Assembly: GCA_948468495.1 (NCBI GenBank)
Contig: CAOKJI010000184.1
Location: forward strand, 1-5,183
Length of the DNA: 5,183 bases
DNA from: an uncultured Dorea sp.
GTDB lineage: Bacteria > Bacillota_A > Clostridia > Lachnospirales > Lachnospiraceae
Direction: 5' to 3'
The notes under the pieces are model-generated. The model made no database searches and was not told where the DNA came from. It was given only the letters and a program-made list of their open reading frames with translations. Positions 1 through 4,987 of the stretch are shown piece after piece; position 1 is the stretch's first letter, and each line of letters opens with the position of its first letter. A program made the position numbers and the translations under genes.

Positions 1-147
1 ATATAATTCCTCGCCACCGAATGACTGAAACGGACTCTCTAACGCCGAATCCAGTAGTCCATAATCCCAAATCCCTTCACACCCTCCAGTAGAATTGATT
101 AACTGACTATGGAGCTTTAAAACCTGTTCTTTTGTCAGACGAATCAT
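1..147 (-). CDS. doc: Doc/Fic-family toxin (death-on-curing), N-terminal part only
   Basis: Forty-nine codons of a gene leaving the window at its left edge. The protein starts MIRLTKEQVLKLH and continues with a GIWDYGLLDSALESPF segment and SFGGEELY. This is the recognisable N-terminus of death-on-curing toxins, whose family pattern is roughly LTxEqvlxlH...GlRDeGLLeSALa.PfqtFgGedLY. Doc toxins are Fic-fold enzymes; phage P1 Doc phosphorylates EF-Tu and stops translation. The catalytic HxFxD/GNKR motif lies beyond the window, so activity cannot be judged. The ATG (145-147) overlaps the antitoxin stop in an ATGA arrangement, so translation is probably coupled to the antitoxin. Family assignment rests on the N-terminus plus the Phd-like partner. 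Confidence 0.85.
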   Translation of the reverse strand, partial: MIRLTKEQVLKLHSQLINSTGGCEGIWDYGLLDSALESPFQSFGGEELY

Positions 148-386
148 TTTGCCAATACCTCATATGCTTCTTTATTCTGCTCAATCAGCCTTTTTGAAAT
201 ACTCATTATATCCTCATCCGATGCAACTGAATCATCCTCGGCTTTACTAAAATCTATTACAAGATATCTCGGAACATTATTTTTTAAAATTACAGCAGTA
301 CCATGTTCATCAACCAATCTTGCAACCTTAGAAAAATTCTGGTTTGCTTCTGTAATGGAAACTAATGTATTTGTATCAATCTTCAT
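144..386 (-). CDS. phd: Phd/YefM-family antitoxin
   Basis: An 80-residue protein of normal Phd/YefM length. The N-terminal half (residues 1-47) has the family layout: a short strand, then ITEANQNFSKVARLVDEHG, then a strand pair AVILKNNVPRYLVI. This half dimerises and binds the operator. The acidic, helical C-terminus (about 55-80, ending AYEVLAK) is the segment that wraps and blocks the Fic toxin in this family. The start is set by AAGGAG at 397-402, ten bases upstream. It overlaps the downstream Doc toxin by ATGA, the usual antitoxin-first order. It has its own promoter (423-451) overlapping palindromic repeats, which fits autorepression by the antitoxin or the antitoxin-toxin complex. Confidence 0.9.
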   Translation of the reverse strand: MKIDTNTLVSITEANQNFSKVARLVDEHGTAVILKNNVPRYLVIDFSKAEDDSVASDEDIMSISKRLIEQNKEAYEVLAK

Positions 387-452: not shown

Positions 453-905
453 CTATTTTTCTTTTAACGGACACCATGCAGGACTAATTTTTGGTGGATG
501 ATTTTCGCCCAGACTTCCCATATCGTCAATCCTTTTCTCATGGTCGCAATAATATTTCTTATATTTGTAGTCATACATCTTCATAAATTCGCATTCACTG
601 CAATGTGGTGCTCTGTATGCATTTTTATGTTCTTCTACAGGTTTTACACCTTTTACAGACCTTTTTTCTCCTTTCTGCCTGTGTATGGAGTCAAAAGCTA
701 TTCTTTCTTTTCGCATATTAGAAGCAAACTTGCCAAAGCCTCTTAGAATAATCTCTTCGCCGTCAATCATGCACTGGGACATTTCGCTTAACAGCGTATT
801 GATGATTAGTTCAATATCATCTTTTTTCAGCCTTTCCTTGTAACCTGTCCTTCCTACGTTTACCTTCTTCCATACTCTGTCAATTAACTGTGGTTTGTAA
901 ATCAT
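453..905 (-). CDS. HU/IHF-like DNA-binding protein with C-terminal Cys/His cluster
   Basis: A 150-residue protein. Residues 6-60 follow the HU/IHF pattern: LIDRVWKKV, a second helix KDDIELIINTLLSEMSQCMIDGE, then EIILRGFGKF, matching the GFGxF signature of HU proteins (usual length about 90). The following DNA-binding arm is not the usual RxGRNPxTGE but a degenerate basic stretch (about 64-90). After residue 100 comes a separate module: C102-x2-C105, C120-x-H122 and SPAWCPL with C145, a spacing that could bind zinc. The start is fixed by AAAAGGAGG (915-923), nine bases upstream. The gene lies behind a long structured leader (about 906-1165) and upstream of the toxin-antitoxin pair. HU-like proteins bend or bind DNA; the role of the Cys cluster is unknown. 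Such small proteins often occur in phages and integrative elements, so an accessory function is inferred. Confidence 0.7.
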   Translation of the reverse strand: MIYKPQLIDRVWKKVNVGRTGYKERLKKDDIELIINTLLSEMSQCMIDGEEIILRGFGKFASNMRKERIAFDSIHRQKGEKRSVKGVKPVEEHKNAYRAPHCSECEFMKMYDYKYKKYYCDHEKRIDDMGSLGENHPPKISPAWCPLKEK

Positions 906-963
906 GTGATTTGTCCTCCTTTTGTTTGTTCCTTTGAAATCATTGTTTTATTTTAGTCTCCTA

Positions 964-987
964 TACAGAGGCTTATTTCGCTCTGTA
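964..987 (-). ncRNA. Small hairpin in the leader of the HU-like gene
   Basis: TACAGAG (minus strand, 987-981) pairs perfectly with CTCTGTA (970-964) around a 10-base loop. The loop and 3' arm contain the AAATAAGCCTC segment needed for the alternative 968-1062 pairing, so the two structures exclude each other. This hairpin is compatible with the terminator-like hairpin at 1051-1096. Confidence 0.5.
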
Positions 988-1062
988 CTGCTCATAAAAG
1001 GGTTAGGGTGGGGATATGGACTATTTGTGCTTCCCTTTTATTCAGCCACTAAAATAAGCCTC
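968..1062 (-). promoter_or_regulatory. Alternative (anti-terminator-like) RNA pairing
   Basis: GAGGCTTATTT (minus strand, 1062-1052) is perfectly complementary to AAATAAGCCTC (978-968), 11 bp. Inside it, ATAAAAGGG (1041-1033) pairs with CCCTTTTAT (1002-994), 9 bp. The first segment is also the 3' arm of the terminator-like hairpin at 1051-1096, so the two folds are mutually exclusive. This is the hallmark of attenuation; function is inferred from pairing alone. Confidence 0.65.
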
Positions 1063-1096
1063 ACAGTTATCCTATTCTCTACTGTGGGACTTATTT
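1051..1096 (-). terminator. Attenuator-type terminator hairpin in the HU-gene leader
   Basis: In the minus-strand RNA, 1096-1081 pairs with 1067-1052 over 16 positions with one G-U pair and one C-A mismatch, around a 13-base loop. The 3' arm ends in CTTATTTT, giving a short U run. The stop codon of the 8-codon leader ORF (1095-1097) overlaps the base of the 5' arm, so a ribosome stalled there would block the hairpin. The U tract is short, so termination efficiency is uncertain. Confidence 0.6.
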
Positions 1097-1121
1097 AGAT
1101 GTCCAAATATTTTGTTGTCAT
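1095..1121 (-). CDS. Putative 8-residue leader peptide MTTKYLDI
   Basis: ATG at 1119-1121 is preceded seven bases upstream by AAGAAGGG (1129-1136), a plausible ribosome binding site. The ORF reads MTTKYLDI and stops at TAA, which overlaps the base of the attenuator hairpin. It sits about 45 bases downstream of a good minus-strand promoter. Order and spacing match leader-peptide attenuators known upstream of mobile-element genes such as tet(M). No run of one amino acid is present, so a specific amino-acid sensor is not suggested; sensing of slowed translation is more likely. Too short for family assignment. Confidence 0.5.
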   Translation of the reverse strand: MTTKYLDI

Positions 1122-1142
1122 ATTAAATCCCTTCTTATATGC

Positions 1143-1162
1143 TGTTGTAAAAGTGTTGTAAA
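1143..1162. repeat. Tandem 9-base direct repeat TGTTGTAAA
   Basis: TGTTGTAAA occurs at 1143-1151 and 1154-1162, an 11-base period of about one helical turn. It lies at or just downstream of the expected transcription start of the minus-strand leader, so it could be a regulator site. The TTGTAA core also occurs in the BceR-type box at 1231-1235 region. Role unknown. Confidence 0.45.
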
Positions 1163-1170
1163 TTCCACGC

Positions 1171-1199
1171 ATGATAAACCGCAAACCCAATAAAATCAA
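1171..1199 (-). promoter_or_regulatory. Promoter for the leader and HU-like gene
   Basis: Minus-strand -35 TTGATT (1194-1199) and -10 TATCAT (1171-1176) with a 17-base spacer. Transcription would start near 1164, placing the leader ORF, the attenuator hairpin and the HU-like gene in one transcript in a sensible order. Confidence 0.65.
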
Positions 1200-1356: not shown

Positions 1357-1362
1357 AAGGAG
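1357..1362 (+). promoter_or_regulatory. Ribosome binding site that decides the BceA-like start
   Basis: AAGGAG lies five bases upstream of ATG 1368. The in-frame upstream ATGs at 1320 and 1341 have no comparable site, and the residues they would add do not belong to the family. Confidence 0.85.
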
Positions 1363-1367
1363 ACCAT

Positions 1368-2126
1368 ATGCTGCAGATACAAAATATAGAAAAATATTAC
1401 GGCAATAAAAATCAGGTAACCAAAGCCTTAGACCGGGTCAGCTTCGACGTGGACGACGGTGAATTTATCGCCATTATGGGGGCTTCCGGAAGCGGAAAAA
1501 CAACGCTGTTAAACTGCATTTCCACCATTGACGCCATAAGCGCTGGGAAGATTTTCCTGGACGGAACTGATATTTCCGACCTGCCCCAGAGCGCCTTAGC
1601 ACAGTTCAGACGCAGTCGGCTCGGCTTCGTATTCCAGGATTTCAATCTACTGGATACCCTGACTGTAGAGGAAAATATCGGTCTGGCTCTGACCTTAAAC
1701 CACGAGAATCCTCATACCGTAAAGGAGCGGGTCTGCCATGTAGCACAACTTCTTGGCATTCCGGATATTCTGGACAAATTTCCCTATCAGGTATCCGGCG
1801 GGCAGAAACAGCGGGCCGCCTGCGCCAGAGCGATTGCGGCGGGCCAGTCTCTTCTGCTGGCCGACGAGCCCACCGGAGCCCTGGATTCTAAAGCGTCCAA
1901 AAATCTCCTGGAAATCATGGTCCGCATGAACAGGGAAACTGACACGACAATTCTTATGGTAACTCACGACGCATACAGCGCCAGCTATGCCGGACGAATC
2001 CTGTTTCTCAAGGATGGACGGATATTTAATGAACTTCTGCGGGGAGAAAGAAGCCGGGCGGTATTCTATCACGAAATTCTGGATGTACTTGCTTTGCTGG
2101 GAGGTGATATCAGTGACCTTATATAA
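1368..2126 (+). CDS. bceA: BceA-like ABC transporter ATPase (antimicrobial-peptide resistance/sensing)
   Basis: A 252-residue ATPase, the usual BceA length. It shows Walker A GASGSGKTT (residues 38-46), Q-loop Q90, signature VSGGQ (142-146), Walker B SLLLADEP (161-168), D-loop ALDS (171-174) and H-loop H200, so it should be active. The C-terminal tail (LFLKDGRIFNELLRGERSR ... LALLGG) is characteristic of the BceA branch of the MacB/LolD superfamily. It powers the BceB-type permease encoded next, with which it removes or detects cell-wall-active peptides such as bacitracin or lantibiotics at the membrane. Control is probably by a BceR-type regulator through the box at 1221-1236, but no sensor kinase or regulator gene is in the window. 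Substrate is unknown; the symbol marks the family, not proven orthology. Confidence 0.9.
   Translation: MLQIQNIEKYYGNKNQVTKALDRVSFDVDDGEFIAIMGASGSGKTTLLNCISTIDAISAGKIFLDGTDISDLPQSALAQFRRSRLGFVFQDFNLLDTLTVEENIGLALTLNHENPHTVKERVCHVAQLLGIPDILDKFPYQVSGGQKQRAACARAIAAGQSLLLADEPTGALDSKASKNLLEIMVRMNRETDTTILMVTHDAYSASYAGRILFLKDGRIFNELLRGERSRAVFYHEILDVLALLGGDISDLI
2100..2108 (+). promoter_or_regulatory. Ribosome binding site that decides the GTG start of the permease
   Basis: GGAGGTGAT is a near-perfect anti-16S match whose GGAGG ends eight bases before GTG 2113. The upstream ATG at 1987 would add 42 residues read out of frame from inside the ATPase gene and not belonging to the family. Confidence 0.85.
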
Positions 2127-4044
2127 ATTATCTTTCAGAAACGCAAGAAGGCAGGCGAAAGATTACCTTGTCTATTTCGTCACCATCATCGTATCCTCCG
2201 CGCTGCTTTACGCCTTCAACGCGCTGGTATTCTCAGAGGAAATCAGAAACTTATCCGGGATGATGAAAAGCCTCCCCATCTTCATCGTTCTTGCCAGTAT
2301 CGCCGCAGTCTTCATTATCGGCTGGCTGGTACGCTACACGACCGGCTTTATGCTTTTAAGACGCAGCAGAGAATTAGGAACCTACATTCTGTCCGGTCTG
2401 GAACCTGCGCAGGTCTCCCGGCTGTTTTTCCTGGAAAATTTAATTGTCGGCGGTCTTGCATTCCTGCCCGGACTTCTGCTGGGAAGTTTCGTATTCCAGG
2501 CGTTACGGGCTGTTATACTGGCCCTCTTTCAGATGTCCTATACCTTCTCATTCTCCTTTCTGCCAAAGGCTGTGGGGCTTACGCTTTTGTACTTTCTGCT
2601 TATTTATCTCTCAGCGCAGTTAAGAGGGAATAAGCGGATTCGTTCTATGAAAATTTATGACCTCATCTATTATGAACGGCAGAATGAGAAAGCTTTCATT
2701 CAAACGGGAAAAATGCGCAGAAGAATATTTGCCATATCCATCCCGCTGGGAATCGTCGGAACGATTCTGATGACCTTAGGGGAACTGGCATCCGGTCTTT
2801 TAGGCGCAGCATGTATTATCCTGTTCCTTTTTGGATTCTTCATCAGCTTTTCCTCCGGCGTCCCCGCCTGGTTTGAAAAGCGTCCGGAGAAGAAATACGC
2901 CGGAGTGACGCTGCTCATCTTCCGCACTCTCTCCGCCAAACTCGCCACAATGGGCGTCGTCATGGCGGCTATATCACTCCTGTTTACCGCCGTTCTTATT
3001 ACCCAGGGCTCTGGAATGACCTTTGCCGCCATGTTTCAAAACCGGGCAGAACAGGTTTCCGCCTTTGATTTGTTCATCACCGCTAAAATCCCGGATGCAA
3101 CGCTGCCTCATTACATGGACTACATTCAGGATAACATAGCTGTAAAGGATTCCCTTACGTATCAGCTGTATCGCGGACAAGGCACACAAATATCAGAGCA
3201 TGTCAATCCAACCGACTATTCCATCCCCCATTGCGACATGCTTATGCGGTTCAGCGACTATGCCGCTCTGCGCGCTATGCTGGGTTATTCCGAAGCAGCT
3301 CTCACTCCCGGCGAATACCTGATTCACTGTATGCCGCATCTGAAAAATAAGGTGCTGGACGCAGCTTCCGCTCTCAATACAGATGACGGCCCCTTACATC
3401 CCGGCAAAGTTTATACGGAAAATTTTAACCAGCGCTGGTGGGATCAGGGTAATGGAGCCGGATTCGTCATCGTAGTGCCGGACGAACTGGCAGAAAAAAG
3501 GCCCGTCGATTACACCCTCTACGCCGCTATGCTGAAACACCCTGCCAGCGAGGAGCAGTATCAGGCTCTGGATGAGCTCCGGAACACCTACTGCAAGACA
3601 GAATATGATTCCCTGCATCTCAAATCCCATGAGGAAGAAGAAAGCGCCGCCATGATTGCAGTAATCGTATTTCCACTTTACTATCTTGCTCTGATACTTA
3701 CTATGACCGCCGCCGCAATCCTAACCATACAGCAGCTCTCCGAGACGGCGCACTACCGGCGTCAGTTCCTGCTTCTAGATAAGCTTGGCATGGAACGAAC
3801 GGAAATGGCAAAGGCGCTGCGCCGGCAGCTCGCCGTTTATTACACGATGCCGGCCATACCGCCCGTCCTAATCGGCGCACCCATGATATTCAGCGTAGGA
3901 AACGCCGTAGAGCCAGGCACACTGACCGGAGCAAGCCATCCAGCTGTAATCGTAGGAGACTGCCTAATATTGTTCTTCCTGATATATTTCATCTATATCC
4001 TGATGGCATATGTCCGTTTAAAAAAAGATGTGCTTCCCGCATAA
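2113..4044 (+). CDS. bceB: BceB-like ABC transporter permease (FtsX family)
   Basis: A 643-residue permease, matching the roughly 640-650 of BceB. The start is GTG: the protein then begins VTLYKLSFRNARRQAKDYLV, the typical BceB N-terminus. Ten hydrophobic segments fit the family topology: about 20-39, 53-75, 105-131, 153-170, 206-226, 228-250, 279-299, 511-538, 574-597 and 610-633. A large extracellular domain of about 205 residues lies between helices 7 and 8 (about 302-508); in BceB it determines peptide recognition and signalling to the kinase. FtsX-like regions are at about 60-180 and 515-635. A conserved cytoplasmic stretch HYRRQFLLLDKLGMERTEM follows helix 8. The gene overlaps the ATPase gene by 14 bases, so the two are translationally coupled. 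The extracellular domain is too variable to predict the peptide substrate. Confidence 0.92.
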   Translation: MTLYKLSFRNARRQAKDYLVYFVTIIVSSALLYAFNALVFSEEIRNLSGMMKSLPIFIVLASIAAVFIIGWLVRYTTGFMLLRRSRELGTYILSGLEPAQVSRLFFLENLIVGGLAFLPGLLLGSFVFQALRAVILALFQMSYTFSFSFLPKAVGLTLLYFLLIYLSAQLRGNKRIRSMKIYDLIYYERQNEKAFIQTGKMRRRIFAISIPLGIVGTILMTLGELASGLLGAACIILFLFGFFISFSSGVPAWFEKRPEKKYAGVTLLIFRTLSAKLATMGVVMAAISLLFTAVLITQGSGMTFAAMFQNRAEQVSAFDLFITAKIPDATLPHYMDYIQDNIAVKDSLTYQLYRGQGTQISEHVNPTDYSIPHCDMLMRFSDYAALRAMLGYSEAALTPGEYLIHCMPHLKNKVLDAASALNTDDGPLHPGKVYTENFNQRWWDQGNGAGFVIVVPDELAEKRPVDYTLYAAMLKHPASEEQYQALDELRNTYCKTEYDSLHLKSHEEEESAAMIAVIVFPLYYLALILTMTAAAILTIQQLSETAHYRRQFLLLDKLGMERTEMAKALRRQLAVYYTMPAIPPVLIGAPMIFSVGNAVEPGTLTGASHPAVIVGDCLILFFLIYFIYILMAYVRLKKDVLPA

Positions 4045-4177: not shown

Positions 4178-4693
4178 TTACACCTGCTGCCCCTTCGCAA
4201 AAACAAACAGCTTCGCCTTTCCAAGTACTCTGCTGACACCGTAAAACAGCGCCACATAGATAGGGAACATCACCGCCTGCTTGATAACCCTTGCAGGCAG
4301 GATTGCAAAAAATGCATTCCCATACAGCAGCGTCAGCCAGTAAGTGTTCAGGCAAATATTAACCAGTATCATCACAAGTCCGTTGGCAAGCGCTACTCTT
4401 CGGATAGTCAGCGGCCGTTTATACAGTATCATGCCATAGATAACGCCGCTGGCTGCGCCGCTAATGGTAAATCCCGGGAAAAACGGTCCGGTGGGACGCA
4501 CCAGATATTTCACAAGATCTGCCGCCCCTCCCATCAATCCTCCCACGACCGGCCCGAACAACATGCCGGTCACCTGCAGGGTGTAGAATCCAAGCACCAC
4601 TGCAATGGCAAGCAGCATTGCCGTCATCGCTAACGCTTTTACGTCTTTCAGCTCATGAAAGGAGTCTCTGAATAGCTGTCTCAAGTTTGTCAT
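4178..4693 (-). CDS. folT: Folate-family ECF transporter S component FolT
   Basis: A 171-residue membrane protein. The start at ATG 4693 is set by AAAGGAGG; an upstream in-frame ATG at 4777 lies in the riboswitch expression platform and is rejected. Hydrophobic segments: about 19-41, 42-62, 73-90, 98-118 and 126-157. Residues 43-78 carry the folate S-component pattern GMLFGPVVGGLMGGAADLVKY ... PTGPFFPGFTISG, and later LLYG.AF..ILPARVIKQ. S components capture the vitamin (folate) outside the cell and use a shared EcfA-EcfA'-EcfT module, not in this window. The upstream THF riboswitch supports the substrate. Odd point: relatives as I remember them have about 15-18 residues (a KIGFSFLPI-like loop and helix start) before GMLFGP that are missing here; after FYTLQ the protein goes straight to VTGMLFGP. 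Confidence 0.88.
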   Translation of the reverse strand: MTNLRQLFRDSFHELKDVKALAMTAMLLAIAVVLGFYTLQVTGMLFGPVVGGLMGGAADLVKYLVRPTGPFFPGFTISGAASGVIYGMILYKRPLTIRRVALANGLVMILVNICLNTYWLTLLYGNAFFAILPARVIKQAVMFPIYVALFYGVSRVLGKAKLFVFAKGQQV

Positions 4694-4777: not shown

Positions 4778-4795
4778 TTCTCTTTCTTATGTGCA

Positions 4796-4956
4796 GCAGC
4801 GGGATGCGGAATGTGCACCGCAAGCAGCATTCTTTGAGACTTCTAATAACAATCCGCCGCCTATTACGCGACGCCGTATCAGAATCTACCGCTGCTTTTC
4901 GTCCAACGGGCAACTCCCCGTCCCGCCGGCACTTAACGCGCATATTCCTACTCTGC
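4796..4956 (-). ncRNA. Tetrahydrofolate (THF) riboswitch aptamer
   Basis: The minus strand shows the conserved THF elements in order: GAGTAGG, GCGCGTTAAGTG, a P3 hairpin (CCGGCGGG with CCCGTTGG) with GGGGAGTTG in the loop, GGACGAA, and near the 3' end TGCGGTGCACATTCCGCATCC. P1 is GCAG/CTGC (4956-4953, 4799-4796); P2 pairs GGAATATGC with GCACATTCC with a single A-C mismatch. THF riboswitches bind reduced folates and repress folT and folate genes in Firmicutes, which matches the downstream gene. The P4 arm (4897-4822) is much longer than usual, giving about 160 bases instead of about 90-100. Confidence 0.85.
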
Positions 4957-4987
4957 GTTTCTTACTTTATTCACTTGTTACCGCTAC

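Follow-up and report, generated by a model that had tools for sequence, protein, structure and literature searches.

The put RNA of phage HK022 is a structured leader RNA that stands at the start of a phage-type operon. In Tn916, termination insulation was shown in 2024, together with the antiterminator canT; the terminator T1 is >95% efficient, and the authors suspect that other such elements behave likewise (Wirachman and Grossman 2024, PMC11658703). Translation-sensing attenuators of the tet(M) type place a short ORF before a terminator-like hairpin (PMC5418344), and the late operon of SPbeta is read by the phage polymerase YonO (PMC5467207).

Here we describe a leader RNA found in a stretch of DNA of 5,183 nucleotides, hereafter the window, upstream of a gene for an HU-like protein. 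It resembles put of HK022 in that a structured leader RNA opens a phage-type operon, and it differs in being itself terminator-like; the two are likened by description, not by sequence. It shares with T1 of Tn916 (PMC11658703) a terminator-like hairpin form and a place close to the left end of an integrative element, where the first genes of the element follow it. Unlike Tn916, the elements considered here are larger and phage-like, an outer helix and the sequence are conserved beyond the U tract, and termination is what we infer. As a terminator-like leader at the end of a mobile element the structure is ordinary in kind, while its conserved outer part is unexplained. The features of the window to which the text refers are as follows.

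1039-1113, minus strand: whole conserved RNA hairpin, with an inner terminator-like stem and an outer helix with a conserved mismatch (fold, covariation, R1 match).
1052-1096, minus strand: inner stem-loop of 9+6 pairs with one mismatch and a 13-nt loop (fold).
1095-1121, minus strand: 8-codon ORF MTTKYLDI, not conserved, with a weak ribosome-binding site (sequence, ORF comparison).
968-978, minus strand: partner of an 11-bp alternative pairing with 1052-1062, not conserved (pairing scan).
961-998, minus strand: second conserved block, TATGAGC..CAGAGCG.. (alignment of loci).
1171-1199, minus strand: promoter-like site of the first-pass annotation, TTGATT-17-TATCAT (9/12 match).
1134-1162, minus strand: alternative promoter-like site, TTTACA-17-TATAAG (read by eye).
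453-905, minus strand: HU-like protein of 150 aa (PF00216, E 3.2e-9; phrog_379 and phrog_17842).
144-386, minus strand: Phd/YefM-like antitoxin (E 9.7e-5, below the curated cut-off).
1-147, minus strand: Fic/Doc-like toxin, truncated at the edge of the window (E 0.0021, short of the curated cut-off).

The minus-strand RNA 1121-1035 folded at -23.1 kcal/mol, compared with -11.85 ± 2.8 for shuffled sequences (z -4.0), and none of 200 shuffles was as good. This bears out the terminator-like hairpin of 16 positions at 1051-1096 that the first-pass annotation had noticed. The arms of the inner stem span 1096-1081 and 1067-1052, and a U-rich tract lies within the 3′ arm, GGCUUAUUUU (1060-1051), an arm that is nearly invariant over the 29 instances described below. 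The stem is strong and the U tract is broken up, UUAUUUUA, with an intervening A in the tract CUUAUUUUAG. A terminator scan of the window did not list this hairpin, the loop limit of the scan being 8 nt versus the 13-nt loop present here. Enclosing the inner stem is an outer helix (1109-1099 with 1049-1039; strands UUUGGACAU and AUGCCUAAAU) that adds 10 pairs and was absent from the earlier annotation; its A.C mismatch was kept in 24 of the 29 instances.

A search with the HU-like protein led to 12 loci, namely ten Lachnospiraceae-type records and two from Fictibacillus. At L002-L007 the leader was present upstream of a different gene and the HU-like gene came second. A whole-genome search revealed three leader copies in Sporofaciens musculi WCA-9-b2 (G001), and a 21-base core, with at most two mismatches allowed, matched 17 of 397 genomes of the Sporofaciens family, whereas the reversed control matched none. 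Upon inspection of these core matches, 11 genomes were kept as leaders, while L016, L017, L018, L021, L022 and L031 were dropped as other terminators or chance matches. At L016, L017, L021 and L022, in four genomes, another terminator with the tail GGCTTTTTTTCGTGCCTGAAT lies upstream of a sigma-factor-like gene; GTGCCTGAAT is common to this terminator and the leader family.

A covariance model, R1, was built from 18 aligned instances, one of which was the window (69.8 bits for its hairpin). At E<=0.01 the model matched 25 of 392 genomes of the order Lachnospirales, weak candidate matches included, and 12 genomes reached at least 48 bits. We viewed 17 loci among the R1 matches and added nine of them; L004 was also added, and at L019, where the core pattern had hit something else, R1 put the leader about 310-390 nt further upstream. 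The resulting 29 instances are the copy in the window and 28 loci in genomes of the order to which S. musculi belongs; 11 of these rows lie outside the set used for building R1. Since several genomes contributed more than one instance (three in G001; two each in G368, G123 and G646), the instances are not independent. Left out of the counts were, from the 17 loci viewed, L053 (52.9 bits), L056, L057, L072 and the doubtful L058, L059, L060 and L061, as well as L062-L068 (L063 being the place of L018) and further R1 places.

Rfam 15 gave no covariance-model match over the leader of the window at E<=10. For 15 loci, 13 of them with leaders, there were two matches at E<=1, both far below the gathering scores: mir-1277 over the hairpin of L025 (E 0.15) and FMN upstream in L030 (E 0.35). 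No match was obtained by blastn with the 311-base leader against either plasmid or phage records, or with the exact 21-base core in an IMG/VR scan, and a title and abstract search of open-licence PubMed Central papers found no published description of the element or the RNA. The leader family is a conserved regulatory RNA of a group of large mobile elements in Lachnospirales, without an Rfam match, and it is new as a family.

Over the 29 instances, in an alignment that was fitted to R1 and so leans towards the model, we counted 79 double-change cells compared with 19.9 in shuffles, and none of 500 shuffles reached 79. The outer helix alone accounted for 18 such cells versus 4.8 (0/500), whereas the middle part of the hairpin hardly varies and is hence uninformative on covariation. 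In a MAFFT alignment of the 18 instances, 93.1% of cells were paired, versus 87.9% in shuffles and 33-43% (maximum 43.2%) in slid versions, and double-change cells numbered 26 versus 9.0 (0/500); the number of pairs with a double change was not above shuffles in this 18-row alignment (6 versus 4.6, 107/500). By covariation and by the order-wide matches, then, the terminator-like hairpin suggested earlier for the leader of the HU-like gene of a mobile element is conserved far beyond chance. As the outer helix is kept by compensating changes, it would seem to have a job of its own.

The paired columns also held a strong bias in wobble pairs, with 165 G-U cells versus 6 A-C cells over the 29 instances, 102 versus 6 in the 18-row alignment, and 55 versus 0 in ten of the eleven non-model rows (L004 left out). 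Because a G-U pair in one strand corresponds to A-C in its complement, this bias indicates that the hairpin is selected, and acts, as RNA in the direction of the HU gene. It disfavours an inverted repeat that would serve at the DNA level in recombination, replication or transfer, for which a palindrome would not be expected to show such a strand preference. That idea draws on the position of the hairpin beside the attachment end, with different types of attachment and integrase on its outer side, and we judge it highly improbable.

The first-pass annotation had taken the leader for a translation-sensing attenuator, in which a ribosome that stalls as it finishes the 8-codon ORF would mask the 5′ arm of the hairpin, so that the polymerase can pass. 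In the window, the ORF indeed has its stop at the hairpin base, and a ribosome at that stop would cover the 5′ arm; over the 29 instances, however, frame, start codon and ribosome-binding site vary. In all 29 we scanned for start codons in an interval that opens 60 bases ahead of the R1 match and closes 15 bases inside it. An ATG ORF with a ribosome-binding-site match of at least 5 bases and a stop inside the 5′ arm was found in 7 of the 29. All seven have one type of upstream DNA (..TTGCACGTATGAC); they comprise L002, L003, L006, L015, L024 and L033, as well as L029, which has an early stop. The ribosome-binding match was only 4 bases, by a lenient rule, in the window, L004, L007, L019, L026 and L047. 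In L005, L025, L030, L051 and L055 an ATG ORF runs through part or nearly all of the hairpin, and in L020, L023, L032, L048, L050, L052, L054 and L070 no ATG ORF reaches the stem. The nucleotides TTTGGACAT, which form the 5′ arm of the outer helix, are conserved but their frame varies, reading MNIWTS in L026, L047 and L049, and YLDI in the window, L005 and L047. Moreover, the stop at the hairpin base means little because the bases CATCTAAATAAG carry stops in two of three frames, such that stop codons at this place arise from the conserved bases themselves. The ORF is probably incidental. What the window and one class of loci share with the tet(M) type (PMC5418344) is a short ORF that precedes a terminator-like hairpin; unlike in that type, the ORF and the alternative pairing are not conserved and the pairing partner lies downstream of the U tract.

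The alternative pairing joins 1052-1062 to 968-978 (11 bp) and 1033-1041 to 994-1002 (9 bp). Both blocks are present in the window, and when the 150 bases downstream were shuffled 200 times by mononucleotide, 0.5% of the shuffles gave a block as good as the 11-bp one. The RNA 1085-906, which is without most of the 5′ arm, folded no better than chance (z -0.87; 37/200 shuffles as good). The pairing was scored in 27 of the 29 instances, the script having found no arm in L054 and L055. Values of <=5% of 200 shuffles were obtained only for the window (0.5%), L048 (0.5%) and L029 (5%), and the pairing was strong in two of the 27, the window and L048. A 7-bp version that reaches the second block was seen in L003, L004, L005, L006, L024, L029, L030 and L033, with 5-22% of shuffles as good in each case. 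This version is suggestive, yet it comes without compensating changes: where the 3′-arm GGCUUAU has become GACUUAU (L002, L025, L032 and L034), pairing in the hairpin is kept and the GAGCC of the second block is unchanged. The same arm change occurs in L049, whose downstream part is outside the alignment. Furthermore, the alternative pairing cannot be a classical antiterminator because the polymerase is already beyond the U tract when it transcribes the partner sequence. The second block itself, downstream of the hairpin, reads TATGAGCC..CAGAGCG..AGCC. It was not seen in L023, L048, L050 and L070, where the gene closely follows the hairpin, and no consistent structure was read by eye in its alignment. 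Comparison of related leaders thus retained the hairpin and neither the ORF (29 instances) nor the alternative pairing (27 instances), and their combination was rejected as a conserved mechanism. Since most of the 29 either have no such ORF, read it in a different frame or continue it through the hairpin, we regard leader-peptide attenuation as very unlikely.

The promoter that had been placed at 1171-1199 is present as a 9/12 match, with a -10 that reads TGTCAT in L004 and L007. The window holds 9 such promoter-like sites versus 8.3 ± 2.8 expected from shuffles, and since this count is not above shuffles the site is no evidence in itself. The alternative site at 1134-1162, which the promoter scan did not list because the T at position 6 of its second hexamer is missing, would start RNA near 1127 and hence without the ribosome-binding site of the ORF.

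In three elements, two in S. musculi (G001) and one in G707, the hairpin was found immediately within the left end, ahead of the first operon. These elements are ~44, 44 and 50 kb in size; each has a gene for a tyrosine integrase at its right end and one for a YonO-like RNA polymerase in its interior, and their first operon contains HU-like and cold-shock genes and a weakly HNH-like gene. Two elements were bounded by repeats and one by the start of likeness to its sister element. The two Sporofaciens elements are 91-99% alike in long blocks. Their likeness begins at the leader (L037:1169 = L038:935, reversed coordinates), and outside it their attachment and integrase parts differ. One of them has a 26-base tRNA-like sequence at both ends, about 43.5 kb apart; the tRNA reading of this attachment end was drawn from the repeated sequence, and ARAGORN identified no tRNA in 11 loci. 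For the other, with no such repeat recorded, the integrase, about 44 kb away, was taken to mark the right end. In G707 a 29-base direct repeat of 90% identity flanks 50 kb, with the leader about 115 nt inside the left copy and the other copy after the integrase, at the right end. All three right-end genes matched Phage_integrase and, as in Tn916, two of the three also the Tn916 integrase DNA-binding domain (PF02920). Inside the elements we found TubZ-type tubulins and tape-measure-like proteins, a fused topoisomerase VI in one element and a primase-like protein in another, and among the subset of element genes tested no capsid or terminase gene was recognised.

On the upstream side of the leader, the window (1362-4044, plus strand) and L041 (7510-10486, reversed) carry genes for an ABC ATPase and an FtsX-type permease, and ABC genes of similar appearance flank one Sporofaciens element past its integrase end; an ABC-type locus may be a recurrent integration neighbourhood. 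A pre-integrase hairpin was observed in L041 (5930-5990, reversed), where 19 bases, AAAAAGAGCCTTAATATGA, are shared in inverted orientation with the left-end DNA beside the leader in L004 and L007. This 19-base site is a possible exchange point for integrase modules. Elsewhere in the window, a THF riboswitch (4795-4957, minus strand; 82.6 bits) is followed by a gene for a folate ECF transporter S component (4178-4693, minus strand; TIGR04518), an ordinary and known pair.

The reading that we favour, with a probability of roughly 0.55, is that the leader is a cis-acting hairpin, a T1-like end-insulator or attenuator terminator, that gates the first operon of these phage-like elements. At the left end of the element, where it separates the attachment end from the first operon, the hairpin would cause host RNA polymerase coming from flanking DNA or from a weak end promoter to stop at the U-rich tract, and in this way it would hold down expression of the first operon in the integrated state. 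Termination at the hairpin is what its form suggests, and the hairpin probably limits transcription into the element. An antitermination step would then allow read-through and expose the outer helix, which might be bound, for example, by a protein or the polymerase. Because it extends beyond the U tract, the outer helix can form only in read-through RNA. The conservation is more than insulation alone accounts for, since a plain insulator would need neither conserved sequence nor base pairs past the U tract. In addition, the gene stands close behind the hairpin in L023, L048, L050 and L070, so the promoter is probably upstream and the arrangement in these loci is more attenuator-like than insulator-like.

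The same outer helix, the place of the RNA at the start of an operon and its strand-specific conservation could also be accommodated by a processive antitermination RNA in the manner of put of HK022 or canT of Tn916, a nascent hairpin that would load onto the polymerase and let it pass later terminators. For such RNAs canT provides a precedent from a mobile element of Gram-positive bacteria (PMC11658703). The hairpin itself, however, looks like a terminator, and we consider such an RNA distinctly unlikely.

The HU-like gene downstream of the leader (905-453), as annotated at first, was upheld by its PF00216 match. The protein of the window consists of an HU N-terminal part and a Cys-rich tail; L024 has this tail as an ORF of its own, and in L001 it forms the end of a cold-shock-type protein. 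Since the window also lacks the first gene of the L002-L007 type, it represents a shortened copy. Behind the HU-like gene, the proposed toxin-antitoxin pair was recovered as Phd/YefM and truncated Fic/Doc matches, although both were below the curated cut-offs; the pair has a promoter-like site of its own at 451-423, and a closely similar pair is present in L001. A match to PF00216 was found in the operon at 20 of 22 loci with a chosen gene tested, the genes having been picked after reading them, and L026 was just below the curated cut-off. The other two tested loci were L047, with no family, and L030, where a cold-shock gene comes first; with L015, L029, L033, L049, L051, L052 and L054, which were outside the test, 9 of the 29 have no HU match on record. 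Another operon protein (query L009:5077-5514) had matches in 4 of 19 leader-bearing versus 1 of 19 other genomes, a weak link.

HU-like proteins bind bent and mismatched nucleic acids. The read-through hairpin could be a candidate binding site for an element protein, most simply for autoregulation by the HU-like product, and the PF00216 matches and the A.C mismatch retained in the outer helix are consistent with this. The genes of L047 and L030 do not fit, and the outer helix hardly changes among leaders whose HU-like proteins are diverse; we consider autoregulation unlikely, if worth keeping in view.

Like SPbeta with its YonO (PMC5467207), the Sporofaciens elements encode PF05183 polymerases, and they do so in both cases. 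The polymerase of G707 is a relative by 25% identity, the tested piece being without a Pfam match. A polymerase protein query against 392 genomes matched nine, which were 4 of 25 leader-bearing genomes versus 5 of 367 others (Fisher p 0.0013), or 4 of 12 versus 5 of 380 when leader-bearing genomes were those with at least 48 bits; the query is blind to part of the family, as it missed the second Sporofaciens polymerase (L040) in G001. The PF05183 model also matched 9 of the 392 genomes, G408 among them, but none was leader-bearing and G001 was missed. An earlier count of 8 of 19 leader-bearing genomes versus 0 of 19 others had used first-listed controls, with G408 omitted, and is superseded by the 392-genome run. 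Only in G001 and G707 were leader and polymerase seen to share a contig. The polymerase is therefore enriched with the leader in this sample, far from strictly, and neither needs the other. In G707 (C70:38287-40785) and G515 (C72:4358-5293) the YonO-like gene has one in-frame TAG each, which reflects either a broken gene or a recoded stop.

The flap is needed for control of hairpin-dependent pausing and termination, and YonO-like single-chain polymerases are without most conserved msRNAP domains (PMC5467207). The leader could conceivably be a polymerase-selective gate, at which the host polymerase stops during dormancy of the element, whereas the element's YonO-like polymerase ignores the hairpin. 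The first operon would then open only once the polymerase of the element is made, and the outer helix would mark or stabilise the element's own transcripts. Relatives of the polymerase also occur without the leader, and, unlike the reading of the SPbeta late operon by YonO (PMC5467207), its reading of the leader operon is only hypothetical; we hold this gate to be scarcely probable.

The leader family makes testable how integrated elements stay silent beside active host genes. If the hairpin works like T1 of Tn916, the insulation principle would extend to phage-like elements that encode their own polymerase, and conservation of the outer helix suggests that the RNA has a second function.
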